A DNA stretch of 64,000 nucleotides from Halobacteriales archaeon YIM A00010 (GTDB lineage: Archaea; Halobacteriota; Halobacteria; Halobacteriales; Haloarculaceae): positions 62,001 to 126,000 of the forward strand of contig JAKCFJ010000003.1 in the NCBI GenBank assembly GCA_025041175.1, given 5' to 3'. Every line of letters begins with the position of its first letter. The first letter of the stretch is position 1. Of the stretch, positions 46,497 through 55,994 are shown piece after piece. A model generated the notes under the pieces. That model was not told the origin of the DNA and made no database searches. It saw only the letters and a list, made by a program, of their open reading frames with translations. The position numbers and the translations under genes are program-made.

Positions 46497-46914
46497 GGAT
46501 TCTACTTGTACGTTTTAGATGCAGTATTATAAATTTGGGAGTTCAGTGGGAGACGGCGTCGACGTTACGGGCTTGTCCTACGAAGATAATTGGAGGGCTA
46601 CTTTATTCAATCAGTACGATCTGGTTCGGTTGGACTGTCACGGGTTCTGATAATCCCGTGCAAACTCTGTCGGAATTTATCTACTTGTTGTGTAGTCTTA
46701 CAACCCGCCCGAACGAGTGTGACATCGGCCAACCCGAGCACGAGGCCGTGGAACGGATTCTCACCATCTAGTATCACTTCCGGTCTATTTATTCAACTAT
46801 ACTTGCTATATACGAATAAATAATATACAATCTTTATTTCCCATACTATATTCCTACGCATTAGAAATATAATACTTGATTACCGTCTGGTTTGGATTGT
46901 TCACTGCAGGTAGC
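46497..46914. other. Divergent intergenic region
   Basis: Between the divergent Spo0M and PhoD genes. AT-rich stretches at 46500-46540 and 46790-46880 probably contain the two promoters. A short plus frame around 46600-46770 has no identifiable domain. Confidence 0.5.
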
Positions 46915-48951
46915 ATGACCGACACGACCCAAACCGACCCCGGCAGTGACGATCCGGACAGTGAACGACGCACCTTCCTTCAAACGATGGGCGGAATAGC
47001 GGTCGCAGCCACTGGTTTGTCGGGGACTGCGAGGGCTGAGAATAACCAAAGCGGAGCAAGCGACGCGGAGACTGTTTCGCTGACCCATGGTGTCGCAGCA
47101 GGCGACGTCACAGCGAAAACGGCTGTTGTCTGGGCACGAACAGCCGACGAGGCGACTCTCCATGTCGAGTATAGCTCTTCCGACTCCTTCTCCCCGTCTC
47201 GGCAGCGGCGCACGACCGTCGATTCAACGACTGACTTTACCGGCCACGTTCGGTTACAGGGGCTGAAGTCAGCGACACGCTACTACTACCGCGTCTGGGC
47301 AACGTCCAGCAAGAACAATCGTAACACGTCTGCTCCGGATACAGCAGCCACGGGAACGTTCCTCACGGCTCCATCCGCCACCGAGGAGGAAAGTGTCACG
47401 TTCGCCTGGAGCGGCGACACGTGGGGGTATGGGGATGATCCCATCGACCCCCCGTTCCCAGGGCTTCGGACGATCGCGGACCGGGAGCCGGACTTCTTCC
47501 TCTATCATGGCGACACTATCTACGCCGATGCGCAGACGCCAGCCGGGAAGATCACCGAGAACACTCCGATCGACGATTCCCTCGAGATCTACCGGGACAA
47601 GTACAAGGAAATGCGCGATCCGCCGGAAGAGATCGCAGAACAGACGTATCTTCGGGAACTGCTCGAAACGACATCGGTCTACACTGTCTGGGACGACCAC
47701 GAGGTCATCAACAACTTCGCGGGGCCGATCGAGCCGCTGATGCCTGAAGGGCGGCAAGCCTTCCGGGAATACTGGCCGCTCGACCGGGACAAGACAGCTA
47801 AACCCAGCGAATCCAACAAGTTCTACGATTCGTTCCGATGGGGAAAACACGTCGAACTGTTCATTATCGACACTCGTCAGTACCGCGACCCGAACATCGA
47901 TCTCGACTCGAAAACGCTGCTCGGTGAGGAGCAACTCGAGTGGTTGAAAGGAGCACTCGCCGACTCCGACGCGACGTGGAAGCTTCTCGCTTCGCCGGCC
48001 CCGCTGGGGTATCCATCGGACTCGTGGGCAACCCCGGTGGATCGAACCGGTTACGAGGCGGAACTCCTCGAACTCGTCAAACACATCCAGAGGGAACAGA
48101 TCTCGAACGTGGTCGTCGTGGCCGGAGACGTCCACAAGTCGGTCGTGGGCGCGTTCGATCCGAACGGAGACGGCGAATTTGAGTTCTTCGAGGCCATCGC
48201 TGGACCGCTGGGTGCGCCCGCAGGCGCGCCGGACGACCTCTATCCAGCACTCAACCCGACGGAGTTCTTTGCGAAGGGCGAGTACACCAACTTCGGGACT
48301 GTTGAAGTTGATGAATCGGGTGAGACGCTGACGATCGGCATCTACGACGAGGACGGAACGGAGCAGTTCACGAAGACGATCGGCACATCAGACATCAATC
48401 CGGGGACCGATCCGGCGGACCGCATCGAGAGCACGTTTGATGAGGACGCTGACGGTTGGCTCATCTCGCAAAACGGTGGGAGCAACCGTTCCGTCTATCG
48501 TGAAACTGACGGCAATCCTGGCGGCCACATTAGCGACGAAGAAAATCAGAATGGTGTCGCTTGGTACTACCAGGCTCCATTCAAGTTCCTCGGCGATCGA
48601 GAGGCGTTTTACGGCGGGACGCTCTCGTTCGACCTTCGCCAGGCTCAGACCGACCAGCAGTTCGACGCTGAACCGACAGAAGGCGGCGATGTCCTGCTCG
48701 CAAGCGGTACCGAGAAGCTCGTCTACGAATTCCGCGGCTCGGATGCCAACCCTGGCGAAAAGTGGACCACGTTCGAGGCACCGCTCACGGCCGATGCCAC
48801 CTGGATCGACCTCAGGAGCGAAGAGCCGCTTGCAACCGAGGAAAAATTCCGGGCTGTGCTGAACGATCTGGAAGTCCTCCGTATCCGTGGCGAGTACCGG
48901 TCCGGCGACGACACGAGCTATCTCGATAACGCCGTTCTGTCCAAGGACTAA
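46915..48951 (+). CDS. Tat-exported PhoD-type phosphatase with laminin-B-like domain
   Basis: A 678-aa secreted protein. The start MTDTTQTDPG precedes a Tat signal (ERRTFLQTMGGIAVAATGLS), so it is exported folded. The PhoD N-terminal domain starts at SLTHGVAAGD. Metallophosphatase ligands are in WSGDTWG, YHGDTIYAD, WDDHEVINN and VVAGDVHKS. After about residue 495 a second domain begins (STFDEDADGWLI, GGTLSFDLRQ, LRIRGEYRSGDD) that resembles the laminin B (domain IV) fold. The enzyme probably hydrolyses phosphodiesters or phosphomonoesters outside the cell under phosphate limitation, with the extra domain aiding substrate or surface binding. Confidence 0.88.
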   Translation: MTDTTQTDPGSDDPDSERRTFLQTMGGIAVAATGLSGTARAENNQSGASDAETVSLTHGVAAGDVTAKTAVVWARTADEATLHVEYSSSDSFSPSRQRRTTVDSTTDFTGHVRLQGLKSATRYYYRVWATSSKNNRNTSAPDTAATGTFLTAPSATEEESVTFAWSGDTWGYGDDPIDPPFPGLRTIADREPDFFLYHGDTIYADAQTPAGKITENTPIDDSLEIYRDKYKEMRDPPEEIAEQTYLRELLETTSVYTVWDDHEVINNFAGPIEPLMPEGRQAFREYWPLDRDKTAKPSESNKFYDSFRWGKHVELFIIDTRQYRDPNIDLDSKTLLGEEQLEWLKGALADSDATWKLLASPAPLGYPSDSWATPVDRTGYEAELLELVKHIQREQISNVVVVAGDVHKSVVGAFDPNGDGEFEFFEAIAGPLGAPAGAPDDLYPALNPTEFFAKGEYTNFGTVEVDESGETLTIGIYDEDGTEQFTKTIGTSDINPGTDPADRIESTFDEDADGWLISQNGGSNRSVYRETDGNPGGHISDEENQNGVAWYYQAPFKFLGDREAFYGGTLSFDLRQAQTDQQFDAEPTEGGDVLLASGTEKLVYEFRGSDANPGEKWTTFEAPLTADATWIDLRSEEPLATEEKFRAVLNDLEVLRIRGEYRSGDDTSYLDNAVLSKD

Positions 48952-49091: not shown

Positions 49092-50198
49092 CTACTCATC
49101 GGCCAACAGCGCGTCGTCGCCGTACTGCTCACGGAGGCGACGCAGAGACTCCCACTGCTCTTCGAGACGATCGGTAGGGTCCACGAAGACATCCGCGAAG
49201 ATGTCGCCGGGGTCGGCTTCGTACTGTTCGGCCCTGTCCACGAGTGCAGTGAGCGTCTCCTCTATCTCGGTCTCCATTCCCTCGATCCGCTCGTCGTCGA
49301 CGATCCCCTGGTCGCGGAGGAAGGCCTCGAAGCGGTCGATCGGATCCTGCTCGCGCCAACGCTCGACGTCTTCCTCCTCGCGGTAGGCCGAGGGATCGTC
49401 GGCGGTGGTGTGAGCCCCGAAGCGGTACTGGACCGCCTCGATCATCGTTGGTCGGGAGCTATCGCCTGCGACAGCCTTCTCGCGGGCGGCCTTCGTCACC
49501 ACGTACGTCGCGAGTGGGTCCATCCCGTCGACCTGGATCCCGTCAATTCCGTACGCCTCCGCCTTTTGGGCCAGTGTTTCGGACGCCGTCTGGCGCTCAC
49601 GCGGTACCGAGATGGCCCACTGGTTGTTATTACAGAAGAAGACGGTGGGGGTATCGAACACGCCGGCGAAGTTCAGCCCCTCGTGGAAGTCCCCTTCCGA
49701 CGTGGCGCCGTCGCCGAAATGAACGATGGTCGCCCGTTCGTCGCCGTTTAGCTTTGATGCCCACGCCCATCCGACGGCGTGGGGGAGGTGGCCCCCGATC
49801 GTGATGTTGAGCGGGAAGACGTGCACGTCGGCTAGGGCCGCGTTGCCGTCTTCGTTGCCCATCCAGTACACGAGGTATTCCCAAGGGAGTTCCCGAGCGA
49901 CGAGCGCACCGTGCTCGCGATATTGGTAGAACAATGTGTCTTCGTCGTGTAGCGCATACGTTGACCCGATCTGAGATCCCTCCTGGCCGGCCAGCGAGGA
50001 GTAGGTGCCGATCCGCCCCTGGCGCTGCAGGCTGATCATACGCTCATCGAACCGCCGACAAAAGCGCATGTCGCGGTACATCGCCACCAGCGTCTCGCTG
50101 TCGAGGTCAGGGAGGAGCTCCGTGGAAACGACGACGCCTTCGGGATCGAGCACCCGCACTCGATCGTCGAATGCCCGATCGAATACATCATGTGACAT
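49092..50198 (-). CDS. 2-oxoacid dehydrogenase E1 component, alpha subunit
   Basis: A 368-aa thiamine-diphosphate enzyme subunit of the pyruvate/branched-chain 2-oxoacid dehydrogenase type. The TPP/Mg motif is GDGATSEGDFHEGLN followed by FFCNNNQWAIS. GSTYALHDEDTLFYQYREHG is also conserved. An E1-beta subunit is needed for activity, yet no E1-beta, E2 or E3 gene is in the window. It may pair with subunits encoded elsewhere or be a paralogue without a complete complex. The gene looks intact. Confidence 0.9.
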   Translation of the reverse strand: MSHDVFDRAFDDRVRVLDPEGVVVSTELLPDLDSETLVAMYRDMRFCRRFDERMISLQRQGRIGTYSSLAGQEGSQIGSTYALHDEDTLFYQYREHGALVARELPWEYLVYWMGNEDGNAALADVHVFPLNITIGGHLPHAVGWAWASKLNGDERATIVHFGDGATSEGDFHEGLNFAGVFDTPTVFFCNNNQWAISVPRERQTASETLAQKAEAYGIDGIQVDGMDPLATYVVTKAAREKAVAGDSSRPTMIEAVQYRFGAHTTADDPSAYREEEDVERWREQDPIDRFEAFLRDQGIVDDERIEGMETEIEETLTALVDRAEQYEADPGDIFADVFVDPTDRLEEQWESLRRLREQYGDDALLADE

Positions 50199-50893: not shown

Positions 50894-51676
50894 TCAGGGT
50901 TCCTGGAGATACTGGTCGACGAACTGTTCGGTACCACGGCGAAGGTGTTCAGAGAGTAATTCCTGGCTCATGTCGAGTTCTCCGGCGAGTTCGCTGGCGG
51001 TGATGTTGCGAGGGATTTCGTAGTACCCACGTTCATTCGCGGCGACGACCGTCTTCAGGGCAGCGAGGCGTGTCCGTGCCTCGTTCGCCGTCATCGGAGC
51101 GGTGTAAATCGGCGATCCGGGTTCGATGTGGCGACCGCCTTTGGCGAGGGTGCCGGTGTCGACCGCCGTGAATCCGATGTCGTCGATAAGATCCGTGACA
51201 ATCTCCTTAGCCTCCCGATCGTCGCCTGCGATGAACAGTGCGAGACGCTCTTCGGGGTCAGCGTCTGGCCGTCCTTCATCTCGGAGTACTTCCCAATACA
51301 TCGTGTTGAACGCCTTGATTACCGTCGCGTCCGAGAGGTAATCAGCGATGAGTTCGGTGTGGGTCTGTCCTTCGAGGGGAACGGCTCCGTCCCGCAGTGG
51401 GTAGTAGTTCGACGCACTGATGACGATTGTATCGGCGAGGACGTCCGTAGGCAAATCTTCGTAGGCCCCGAAGGGAATCGCTTCCATGACGACCTCACCG
51501 AAGGCGGCTGCCTCGGCGGGCGTCCCCGCCTGTGCGTTCGCTCCGAGGTCGTCGACCAAGTCCGCGAGCGTCTCCGGTTCCCGAGAGTTGCTGACCATGA
51601 CTTCATGTCCCACGTCAGTGAAGTGTTGAGCAGCAGTGCTGCCGATATTTCCCGATCCGATAATTCCAACATTCAT
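50894..51676 (-). CDS. F420/NADP-oxidoreductase-type Rossmann protein fused to HTH-10 domain
   Basis: A 260-aa two-domain protein in one uninterrupted frame. Residues 1-200 are a COG2085-type NAD(P)-binding domain related to F420H2:NADP oxidoreductase: MNVGIIGSGNIGSTAAQHFT (GxGxxG), SNSREPETL for the 2'-phosphate, KAFNTMYW, and the usual family ending GSPIYTAPMTANEARTRL. Instead of stopping, the protein continues as VVAANERGYYEIPRNITASE, LAGELDMSQELLSEHLRRGT (203-258), a bacterio-opsin-activator HTH-10 DNA-binding domain. A transcription factor sensing the NADP or F420 state is the simplest reading, though it could be an enzyme with a DNA-targeting tail. Confidence 0.85.
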   Translation of the reverse strand: MNVGIIGSGNIGSTAAQHFTDVGHEVMVSNSREPETLADLVDDLGANAQAGTPAEAAAFGEVVMEAIPFGAYEDLPTDVLADTIVISASNYYPLRDGAVPLEGQTHTELIADYLSDATVIKAFNTMYWEVLRDEGRPDADPEERLALFIAGDDREAKEIVTDLIDDIGFTAVDTGTLAKGGRHIEPGSPIYTAPMTANEARTRLAALKTVVAANERGYYEIPRNITASELAGELDMSQELLSEHLRRGTEQFVDQYLQEP

Positions 51677-52208
51677 TATGTTTCCTACGCTCCGGTACTA
51701 CGAAGTCCGGAAAAGTAAAAACTTGCTCCGTTGATCACCGATTTCTCTCCGAGTTCCGTCGCTGAGTTCAGGGGATTTTGATCCCCTCCCGCGATATGGG
51801 ACGTCTCCGAGAATGGACGAAGAAGTATCGGAGGGTTGGAAAGAATGTGTGGATCACCCGGATGCGTCTGCTGTCGCCGATCAAGACGGCGACGGTGAGC
51901 GCCTAACTTCGGAGTGTAAACGCGAATAGTGCCGCAGCAACTTTTGTTCTTGTTTCTACCGTAGAGATAAAAAAGAGAAGATGTACACTCCGGGAATGGA
52001 GTTGGTACACGAGCAGTCTCCGATGCCAGTCGTTGATAGTGGGGATAGTTAGAGAGAGCTGTTGTTCCATCTCTCTGATAGTATGTTTAGATAGGTGTCA
52101 CTATCGAGCTATACGAACTCAGAGTCCTGTAGCTAGTATCTATTTGAATCAATGATGTGTTGACTCCATGCTAGTCTCCTGTTTGTAAAGCGAGAAGCCA
52201 TCAGGGTG

Positions 52209-52621: not shown

Positions 52622-53368
52622 ATGCGAGAACTCGTCTTCGCCCTCGATTACGAACCGGGCTGTAATCCGGTTGCGGACACCCTCGCTACGCATTCCGATA
52701 CTGCGATCCGATCCCTTTCGTGTCATGTTACGCCCGAGAGCCTCTGGCGGGTCGATCACGCAACCGGCGAGCGTGAGGCAGTGGCTGCGCTCGAAGACGC
52801 GTACTTCGAGGCGGAGTACTGCTCTGACTGTCTCGTGACCGAGAATTGCGGTGCGGACTGTGAGGTGCAGGTCCTCGATCGCACGGAGGAGACGCTCGTT
52901 CTCTATACCTATTGGGAGCGGACCTCGGTCTGTACCTCCGTCCCACATCTGGCCCTTGAGTGGTTAGGCACTGGGCTGTTGTTCGAGACGCGGCGTGAGG
53001 GCCGCCGCTATACGTGGCGAATTATCCTGTCGAACGAGGCCGATATCCACGCGTTCTTCGATGCACTCCACGCGGAAGTTGGTGAGTGTGCCGGGATGGA
53101 GATGCTGCGACTGACCGAACTCGCACCGCGCCGCTCACCGACGAACACTGGTGAGATGCTAGCTGCTAAACAGCGCGAGGCAGTCCGCGCCGCGGTTGAG
53201 CATGGCTATTATGAGACGCCACGGAAGACCGACCTCTCTGAGTTGGCGGCGACGCTCGATATCCCTCGATCGACGCTCTCCTATCGCCTCCGACGCGCTG
53301 AAGCCGAACTCGCTAAACAGTTCGTCGCGACCGATCAACCGCTGGATGCGCTCTCGCCGACCGTCTGA
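52622..53368 (+). CDS. HTH-10 regulator with four-cysteine cluster, likely metal sensor
   Basis: A 248-aa haloarchaeal regulator. The C-terminus holds the HTH-10 domain (AVRAAVEHGYYETPRKTDLS, LAATLDIPRSTLSYRLRRAE). The N-terminal sensor domain carries C67, C70, C76 and C80 (CSDCLVTENCGADC), suitable for binding a soft metal. The Zn/Cd-type P1B ATPase begins 70 bp downstream on the same strand, and a set of CGCCAAC half-sites lies between them. Regulation of the ATPase by metal binding to the cysteines is inferred. Confidence 0.85.
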   Translation: MRELVFALDYEPGCNPVADTLATHSDTAIRSLSCHVTPESLWRVDHATGEREAVAALEDAYFEAEYCSDCLVTENCGADCEVQVLDRTEETLVLYTYWERTSVCTSVPHLALEWLGTGLLFETRREGRRYTWRIILSNEADIHAFFDALHAEVGECAGMEMLRLTELAPRRSPTNTGEMLAAKQREAVRAAVEHGYYETPRKTDLSELAATLDIPRSTLSYRLRRAEAELAKQFVATDQPLDALSPTV

Positions 53369-53438: not shown

Positions 53439-55994
53439 GTGATGAGTACACGATCGGATACAAATGATTCCCCGGACGCTGATCTCGAGGGGGAGCTCCG
53501 GACCCTCCGGCTCTCTGTCCCGGACATGGATTGTCCCTCCTGTGCGGGGAAGGTCACGAACAGCATCGAGAAGCTTGCAGGCATCGAGGAACTCGACCCG
53601 CAGCCTACGACCGGAACGCTCATAGTCACATTTGACCCGTCGAAAACGGACGACGAGGCGATTCTTGACCGGGTTGAGAAAGCAGGCTACGCCGTTGAAC
53701 AGCCAACCGAAGCGGTGACGGTGCGGTTTACCGTCCCCGAGATGGATTGTCCCTCCTGCGCACAGAAAGTCGAGAAGAGTTTGGCGGGGATCGATGGGAT
53801 CACCGAGCGTGATCTCCAGCCCACCACCGGAACGGTGACGGTCAGCTACAATCCGAACGCGACTGCAGAGCAGACTATCACTGAGGCGATCGAAGGAGCA
53901 GGGTACGAGGTTACCGAGCGTTCAGCCGACGATTCGGAGGCCATAGCCGGCGGTGTCCCAGCACCGTCGGCGATCTGGACGGGTCCACGGGCGATCAAGA
54001 CGTGGATCGGTGGAGGATTCCTGACGCTCGGTCTCCTGTTCGAGTTTCTATTCACCGCACAGAACGTCACCGTTGGGAATCTTCTCGGCGTCGGGGTGTT
54101 GCTCGCCGACGTCTTGCTCCTCGCTGCCATTGTGAGTAGTGGCCTTCCGGTTGTCCGCAGCGGGTATTACTCGGCCCGGAATCTGAGCCTCGATATCGAT
54201 CTGCTGATGGGCACTGCGATCATCGCCGCTACCGGGATCGGCTACTTTGTTGAAGCGGCGACACTCGCAGTCCTGTTCAGTATCGCAGAACTCCTCGAAG
54301 ACTACGCGATGGATCGGGCGCGCAACTCGTTGCGCGAGCTGATGGAACTCTCGCCCGACGAAGCGACCGTTCGTCGCGATGGCGAGGAGGAAACGGTCCC
54401 CGTCGAGGAGGTCCACGTCGGTGATACCGTCGTTGTGCGTCCGGGCGAGAAGATCCCGATGGACGGAACCGTCATCGAGGGAGCCAGTGCGGTCGACGAG
54501 TCACCGATTACTGGCGAGAGTGTCCCCGTCGACAAAACAGAGACGGATGAGGTGTACGCGGGGACAATCAACGAAGAGGGCTACCTCGAACTCGACGTGA
54601 CGGCAGAGGCATCGGATAACACGCTCTCACGGATCATCGAGATGGTCCAAGGCGCCCAGCAAAAGAAAACCGACAGCGAGCAGTTCGTGGACCTCTTCGC
54701 GGGCTATTACACGCCAGCGGTCGTCGTCGTCGCGATCCTGACTGCGGCAATTCCGCCGCTGGTGTTCGCTACACCATGGCAGACATGGTTCATACGCGGT
54801 CTTACACTACTTGTGATCGCCTGTCCGTGCGCGTTCGTCATCAGTACACCCGTCAGTGTTGTCTCCGGCATTACCAGCGCGGCCAAGAATGGCGTGCTCA
54901 TCAAGGGCGGGAAATATCTCGAAGCAATGGGTGACGTCGAGACCATCGCCTTCGATAAGACGGGGACGCTCACGAAAGGTGAACTCGCCGTTACTGACGT
55001 TGTCCCGTTGAACGGGTACAGCGAAGTGGACCTCCTCCGCTCCGCAAGCGGACTCGAACAGCGGAGCGAACACCCAATCGCGGACGCTATTCTCGATCAG
55101 GCTACCGAGGCGGATGTGACGCCTGCGGAGGTGGCTGCCTTCGAGAGTATCACCGGCAAGGGCATCCAGGCCGACATCGATGGGACAACGTACTACGCCG
55201 GGAAGCCGGACCTCTTCGGTGATCTCGGTGCAGATCTCTCGCACGCCCACGTCGCGACGGATGGGGGTGTCCTTACCGACGCCGGGGAGCAGTGTGACCA
55301 GGGAAGCTGCGTCGACCTCACGGACGAGACGATCCCTGCCCTCCAAGCGGACGGAAAGACGGTCGTGGTCGTTGGGACAGAGATGTCGGTGGTAGGGGTG
55401 ATTGCGATTGCTGACGAGGTGCGGCCGGATGCCAAAGCAGCTGTCGACCAGCTGCACGAGCTGGGCATCAAGCACCTCATCATGATCACTGGTGACAACG
55501 AGGGAACGGCCCGAGCGATCGCTGAGCAGGTCGGGATCGATGAGTACCGAGCTGAGCTTCTCCCTGAGCAGAAGGTCGACGCCATCGACGAGATGAGTGA
55601 GGAGTACGGCGGGGTCGCGATGGTTGGTGATGGCGTGAATGATGCACCCGCGCTCGCGACCGCAACGGTCGGGATTGCAATGGGTGCTGCCGGGACGGAT
55701 ACGGCCCTCGAAACGGCCGATATCGCGTTAATGGGCGACGATCTCTCGAAACTGCCGTATCTCTACGAACTCTCACATAAAGCAGGGAACGTGATCCAAC
55801 AGAACATCTGGGCGAGTCTCGGCGCAAAGGCACTGCTTGCGATCGGCGTCCCACTCGGGTACGTCAGCGTTGCGGTCGCCGTCGTCGTCGGCGACATGGG
55901 CATGAGCCTCGGGGTCACCGGGAACGCGATGCGGCTCTCACGGATCGTTCCTGAACGCATGCGCAGTGACGCTGACCAGGAGACTAGCGCGTGA
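53439..55994 (+). CDS. P1B-type ATPase, Zn/Cd/Pb class (ZntA/CadA-like)
   Basis: An 851-aa metal-exporting ATPase. Two N-terminal heavy-metal domains carry MDCPSC (C32/C35 and C104/C107). The transmembrane metal site is C462-P-C464 in CPCAFVISTPVSV. Phosphorylation is at D506 in DKTGTLTKG; TGES and GDGVNDAPAL are intact. The CPC context ending in STPVSVVSGITSAAKNGVLI and the late helix with GDMGMSLGVTGNAMRL resemble P1B-2 (Zn/Cd/Pb) pumps rather than copper pumps. Met 2 is an alternative start. It is probably controlled by the HTH-10 regulator just upstream. Confidence 0.9.
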   Translation: MMSTRSDTNDSPDADLEGELRTLRLSVPDMDCPSCAGKVTNSIEKLAGIEELDPQPTTGTLIVTFDPSKTDDEAILDRVEKAGYAVEQPTEAVTVRFTVPEMDCPSCAQKVEKSLAGIDGITERDLQPTTGTVTVSYNPNATAEQTITEAIEGAGYEVTERSADDSEAIAGGVPAPSAIWTGPRAIKTWIGGGFLTLGLLFEFLFTAQNVTVGNLLGVGVLLADVLLLAAIVSSGLPVVRSGYYSARNLSLDIDLLMGTAIIAATGIGYFVEAATLAVLFSIAELLEDYAMDRARNSLRELMELSPDEATVRRDGEEETVPVEEVHVGDTVVVRPGEKIPMDGTVIEGASAVDESPITGESVPVDKTETDEVYAGTINEEGYLELDVTAEASDNTLSRIIEMVQGAQQKKTDSEQFVDLFAGYYTPAVVVVAILTAAIPPLVFATPWQTWFIRGLTLLVIACPCAFVISTPVSVVSGITSAAKNGVLIKGGKYLEAMGDVETIAFDKTGTLTKGELAVTDVVPLNGYSEVDLLRSASGLEQRSEHPIADAILDQATEADVTPAEVAAFESITGKGIQADIDGTTYYAGKPDLFGDLGADLSHAHVATDGGVLTDAGEQCDQGSCVDLTDETIPALQADGKTVVVVGTEMSVVGVIAIADEVRPDAKAAVDQLHELGIKHLIMITGDNEGTARAIAEQVGIDEYRAELLPEQKVDAIDEMSEEYGGVAMVGDGVNDAPALATATVGIAMGAAGTDTALETADIALMGDDLSKLPYLYELSHKAGNVIQQNIWASLGAKALLAIGVPLGYVSVAVAVVVGDMGMSLGVTGNAMRLSRIVPERMRSDADQETSA

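Follow-up and report, generated by a model that had tools for sequence, protein, structure and literature searches.

A haloarchaeal fusion of an NADP-type reductase-fold domain with a C-terminal HTH_10 domain, and its divergent HxlR partner gene

Results

A reductase-type domain and an HTH_10 domain in one frame

The window (the whole 64,000-nucleotide stretch of DNA analysed here) carries at 50894-51676, on the minus strand, a gene for a protein of 260 residues, with its ATG at 51676, its stop codon at 50896-50894 and no alternative in-frame start upstream of the ATG. An earlier note, made from the sequence alone, had described a single frame that continues from a Rossmann domain into an HTH, and this was borne out by Pfam: the window protein matches F420_oxidored (PF03807) over residues 3-91 with 66.8 bits (cut-off 21.6) and HTH_10 (PF04967) at its C terminus, residues 207-250 (50927-51058, minus strand), with 40.1 bits (gathering cut-off 23.1); both models were matched in all 16 distinct full-length homologues that we collected. 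The likely NADP(H)-binding Rossmann/reductase domain, as delimited by Pfam, AlphaFold2 and Foldseek, comprises residues 1-196 (51089-51676, minus strand). The dinucleotide motif and the NADP-type segment named in the same note are kept, with the dinucleotide-binding loop GSGNIG aligned at residues 7-12 (51641-51658) and SNSR at residues 29-32 (51581-51592), both on the minus strand. The glycines of the GxGxxG motif (G7, G9 and G12) are invariant in 16/16 fused homologues and in 19/19 near unfused relatives, and N30, S31 and R32 of SNSR in 16/16 fused homologues. We take SNSR to be the NADP 2'-phosphate side of the site, presumably with the phosphate contact of the family. Among the open-access papers searched, none pairs the two domains and none relevant has COG2085 as its topic, in agreement with the claim that this architecture is undescribed.

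AlphaFold2, run on an alignment from which rows of the plasmid collection were excluded, predicted the window protein as a monomer with a mean pLDDT of 91.7. In this model a connecting helix (residues 197-215; 51032-51088, minus strand) runs unbroken from the reductase domain into the HTH, being the last helix of the former and the first of the latter, so that the two domains are predicted to have one helix in common. It is followed by helices 227-233 and 238-257, the latter being the predicted recognition helix (50906-50965, minus strand). Unfused relatives stop inside or just before the connecting helix. A Natrinema homologue, also predicted as a monomer and without HTH-only rows in the alignment, shows the same arrangement, with a lower pLDDT of 73-81 in the HTH. 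Foldseek returned, in this order, SMa0349 (4huj), STEAP domains and FNO, with N-PAC/GLYR1 (2uyy) further down; TM-scores normalised by target were 0.82 for 4huj (E-value 1.5e-15), 0.83 for 2vns and 0.70 for 1jax. Taken together, Pfam, the PDB relatives (4huj, 5n2i, STEAP, 1jax) and the alignment indicate that the modelled reductase part has the fold of the PF03807 superfamily of FNO, STEAP and SMa0349.

Occurrence and origin of the fusion

A second full-length copy, 62% identical to the window copy, lies on contig C2 of the same genome (5.97 Mb in 7 contigs, the window being on contig C3), and the fusion recurs at 66-69% identity in 14 further carriers from five haloarchaeal families, on plasmids and chromosomes; full-length plasmid homologues with about 69% identity are found in Natrinema sp. 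DC36, Halostagnicola larsenii, Halalkalicoccus sp. FCH27 and Halobacterium hubeiense. Since the in-genome paralogue and the independent homologues are all full-length, the fusion is no sequencing error, and the concern of the earlier note, a fusion in one strain created by joining two adjacent genes, has proved unfounded. An assembly or sequencing artefact, in favour of which we found nothing, would have had to arise identically in a paralogue and in 14 independent records, and we reject it as practically impossible. The fusion is genuine and conserved across several haloarchaeal families. It was detected in 13 of the 391 genomes sampled from the class, plus the genome G146, and in 4 of 393 genomes drawn from the phylum, all four of the same order. 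Plasmid copies are annotated merely as NAD(P)-binding domain-containing protein in PLSDB/RefSeq. A viral or phage origin was rejected, as neither the viral contigs of IMG/VR nor phage records contained a match to the fusion.

The HTH is missing from the nearest unfused relatives (54-63% identity) and from those of Haloferax (45-49%), all of which terminate around residues 206-214. The fused proteins require a single change both on the whole-protein tree and on a tree built from the reductase part, and one fusion event would therefore be the simplest reading, at moderate tree support (91/74 and 91/50; 88-89% of bootstrap trees). Horizontal spread is suggested by the presence of almost identical copies on plasmids and chromosomes of different families. 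The idea that the HTH derives from a neighbouring HTH_10 gene that would still lie next to the unfused relatives was dropped after a simple motif scan of seven such loci, which revealed no leftover HTH_10 gene. The MAG QS_4_66_20 holds a damaged relative of the reductase part (L033 728-1075 / L048 725-1132; 60-65% identity) with in-frame stops and no HTH.

Among the derived carriers, at dS around 1, dN/dS (Nei-Gojobori) was 0.13-0.17 for the reductase part, 0.065-0.105 for the connecting helix and 0.08-0.13 for the HTH, so that constraint on the latter two is no weaker than on the reductase part. For the HTH of the window copy, dN/dS was 0.26 against G146; against the derived carriers, where synonymous sites are saturated, a pN of 0.28 lies far below a pS of 0.87. 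No open reading frame of at least 80 residues was found on the opposite strand over the HTH part. These ratios indicate that both parts of the fusion are under purifying selection.

The putative cofactor site

The N-terminal part had been described in the earlier note as an F420/NADP reductase-type domain, of which the NADP half holds: NADP-type residues are kept, the SR of SNSR aligns with the SR of 5n2i and STEAP3, and the nucleotide-side residues are invariant in the fused proteins. The F420 half does not. Against the NpdG equivalog model TIGR01915 the protein reaches 45.3 bits, far below the cut-off of 149.8, which places it outside FNO/NpdG, and the segment beyond residue ~185 is unlike that of true F420 reductases; we rejected the identity as an F420 reductase on this score, which also leaves F420 use unsupported. 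There are 52 positions at which at least 18 of the 19 unfused relatives have the same residue; the fused proteins retain 91% of the cells there, versus 50% at less conserved positions, and NADP(H) binding by the fusion protein appears likely. The Thr of KAFNT (T125) is present in 19/19 unfused relatives, yet 14/16 fused proteins have lost it: T125 and E108 survive solely in the window copy and in G146, and S36 in one fused protein only. Loss of this Thr is no proof of lost activity, because STEAP3 has Val in its place. The equivalent region of FNO adjoins the nicotinamide, and its I135 has been discussed (PMC5614548).

The HTH_10 domain

About 100 HTH_10 matches occur within this one 5.97 Mb genome, and the scores of its two fused copies (42 and 38 bits) lie near the bottom of them. 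The recognition-helix segment, residues 234-251, has a net charge of -2 to -5 in 15/16 fused proteins, the window copy with -2 being among the least acidic, and of +1 in G146. In 60 HTH_10 matches of the own genome, the same segment averages +0.67 (sd 1.5); this set includes L109, evidently a wrong-frame translation that is to be ignored and that leaves the picture unchanged. In the HTH_10 set of the genome, the PR that follows GYY is almost invariant; it is altered in 14/16 carriers, whereas the window copy and G146 retain both PR and RR. Given the unusual acidic residues of the recognition helix, DNA binding cannot be assumed. Among HTHs of the LuxR type that bind DNA, however, Glu is common at the second position of this helix, so that the acidic helix weakens the case for DNA binding rather than excluding it, and we hypothesize that the HTH may bind DNA.

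A divergent HxlR gene and the intergenic DNA

At 13 of the 16 fusion loci, a divergent HxlR gene lies 201-219 bases away, encoding 119-121 residues (PF01638, 52 bits) that are 75-78% identical to the HxlR protein of C2; no such gene lies beside the window copy, at G146 (a short contig) or in the carrier G390. The conserved unit thus consists of two genes, that of the fusion and that of the divergent HxlR regulator. Just ahead of the HxlR start lies the palindrome TACTACGAAATTCGTAGTA, with at most two mismatches in all 13 loci. We dropped the idea of an HxlR regulon beyond the gene pair, as the own genome has a single TACTACGAAATTCGTAGTA site within two mismatches. Between the two genes, most of the nine closest loci and H. 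hubeiense also have an inverted repeat, GTATCCTCA-GT-TGAGGATAC, which is degenerate elsewhere.

A 39-base block, GGTAGTAGCAACCNNNNTYCTAACTTGGTAGCTTTTCAC, is located ~73 bases upstream of the fusion start, and 13 of the 14 carrier genomes each have exactly one copy of it. The C2 copy has it without a mismatch to the pattern, even though its gene is separated from that of the other carriers by ~1.1-1.2 changes per synonymous site. The block is also intact in G390, a carrier without an HxlR orthologue, where the loss of HxlR may be recent; upstream of the unfused relatives, its match stays within the range of shuffles. Instead of the fusion protein, HxlR or another factor could bind this block.

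The window copy has neither the 39-base block upstream nor an HxlR gene. The stretch TTCGTAGTA, half of the palindrome, lies 28 bases upstream of its ATG (51696-51704, minus strand), and the best 19-base match of the upstream region to the palindrome has five mismatches, compared to six for the best of 40 shuffles, so that the half-palindrome is suggestive at most. A second TTCGTAGTA at 51017-51025 was discarded as a site, as it corresponds to Tyr-Tyr-Glu codons inside the fusion gene.

Discussion

Both domains are already known, as is the idea of a redox sensor made of a Rossmann domain and an HTH; this combination, with its domain order, NADP-type reductase fold and HxlR pairing, is not described in the open-access papers searched, nor did these contain a redox-cofactor sensor built from an FNO/STEAP reductase fold. 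The nearest solved structure, SMa0349 of Sinorhizobium meliloti (4huj), shares the fold and the NADP-type motifs over residues 4-191 (33% identity), but its chain of 220 residues has no HTH. FNO/NpdG, the F420H2:NADP+ oxidoreductase (1jax, 5n2i), belongs to the same Rossmann superfamily and has the SR of the NADP pocket in common with the fusion protein, from which it differs in its C-terminal segment and in lacking an HTH. The cytoplasmic domain of STEAP metalloreductases (2vns, 6hcy) has the same fold and the SR and KAFN motifs, and is joined to a membrane haem domain where the fusion protein has its HTH. From the other side, the haloarchaeal Bat/HTH_10 regulators (and HVO_2928_N-HTH_10 proteins) resemble the fusion in placing HTH_10 at the C terminus behind a presumably sensing N-terminal domain, arranged in the Bat type as REC-PAS-GAF-BAT-HTH_10 (PMC5847659), whereas the N-terminal part of the fusion is a dinucleotide-binding reductase domain and its HTH is divergent and acidic. 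The earlier note had drawn an analogy to Rex-type NADH sensors built from different parts. The parts are indeed different, and the likeness, a Rossmann NAD(P)-binding domain and an HTH in one chain with a proposed readout of the cofactor pool, is a functional one only: Rex carries its winged helix at the N terminus and its NAD(H) domain at the C terminus (PMC8836258), while the fusion has the opposite domain order, NADP-type residues and an unrelated HTH_10, and thus not the Rex architecture. NPAC/GLYR1 (2uyy) also joins a dehydrogenase-type domain to a chromatin-binding domain, but it is eukaryotic, of the beta-hydroxyacid dehydrogenase type with its catalytic Lys lost (PMC13144531), and its PWWP domain is N-terminal.

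We favour the reading, with a probability of about 45%, that the fusion protein binds DNA as an NADP(H)-linked regulator and controls the promoter region common to its own gene and HxlR, whether or not some catalysis remains. The rigid helix 197-215 would relay the state of the dinucleotide (or substrate) site to the HTH, and the HTH would act on the promoter DNA that separates the fusion gene from its divergent HxlR neighbour; both these DNA targets and the coupling of the HTH to the cofactor site are hypothetical. HxlR would provide a second input, of electrophile or redox type, via the palindrome. The window copy, with no HxlR neighbour, may answer to the HxlR protein of C2 or control other targets. 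A more specific version, which we put forward tentatively and with some doubt, would make the protein an archaeal one-component regulator of a new kind, a direct reader of the NADP(H) pool, in which the cofactor state of the FNO/STEAP-type domain positions the HTH_10 via the shared helix, and which forms a mobile two-input redox switch with the HxlR repressor. To our knowledge, direct redox-cofactor sensors are few, and signals are known for only a minority of HTH_10 regulators; the fusion might allow redox state to be read directly at a promoter. It would represent an HTH_10 regulator whose likely N-terminal ligand can be named and checked by a simple binding assay, and the two-gene unit with its conserved operator-like DNA makes a direct experiment possible in Haloferax volcanii.

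The protein could, however, be an ordinary NADPH-dependent reductase for detoxification or redox stress under the neighbouring HxlR repressor, with an HTH_10 domain that has no DNA binding left and serves protein contact or oligomerisation, a reading that we judge unlikely, yet deserving of serious attention. It would accommodate an HTH that remains under purifying selection despite an acidic recognition helix and the loss of PR in most members, as well as the retention of the reductase signature positions, an unfused Deinococcus homologue that is also close to an HxlR gene, and the MFS transporter and PaaI-type thioesterase genes found at some loci. Several observations argue against it: Glu as second residue of the recognition helix is common in LuxR-type HTHs that do bind DNA, the window copy and G146 retain RR and PR, and the 39-base block survives in G390 without HxlR.

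Alternatively, DNA-binding regulation might be combined with a Rossmann domain that is a mere dimerisation scaffold, comparable to the role that the catalytically inert dehydrogenase domain of NPAC/GLYR1 has for PWWP, with a dinucleotide perhaps bound but not sensed. The Foldseek match to 2uyy and the frequent loss of the KAFNT Thr, from which the window copy is exempt, would fit such a protein; the other nucleotide-site and pocket residues are kept, though, and STEAP3 dispenses with the same Thr, leaving this scaffold improbable in our estimate. Still further from likely is an HTH_10 appendage that decays without function as the by-product of a chance fusion. Its low scores relative to the genome and the existence of the reductase domain without an HTH in the unfused relatives would agree with decay, which is largely refuted by the low dN/dS of HTH and connecting helix and by the lack of stops in 16/16 carriers from five families.

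Other genes at the fusion loci

In the window, the fusion gene is accompanied at 52622-53368 (plus strand) by a gene for an HVO_2928_N-HTH_10 regulator that has a Cys-rich segment. The gene immediately following it (53439-55994, plus strand) encodes a heavy-metal P-type ATPase with two metal-binding MDCPSC repeats and is likely under the metal-responsive control of that regulator. In four carriers (L037, L038, L151 and L152), the HxlR-fusion pair occurs together with genes for an MFS transporter, a PaaI-type thioesterase and an HVO_2928_N-HTH_10 regulator. We considered whether the regulator beside the window copy is the counterpart of the one in Natrinema and Halostagnicola, and rejected this; as the two are only 32% identical and differ in orientation, the likeness of the neighbourhoods is taken as coincidence. 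On Haloferax plasmids (L041 and L042), the unfused relative belongs to a conserved gene series that also includes genes for an MFS transporter, a HalOD1-domain protein and a phosphoglucosamine mutase, as well as a NosL-like gene. On the other side of the fusion gene, the window contains a 2-oxoacid dehydrogenase E1 alpha-type gene (49092-50198, minus strand; E1_dh, 277 bits) with no adjoining E1 beta gene, and a gene for a PhoD-like phosphatase with a C-terminal Laminin_B match (46876-48951, plus strand).
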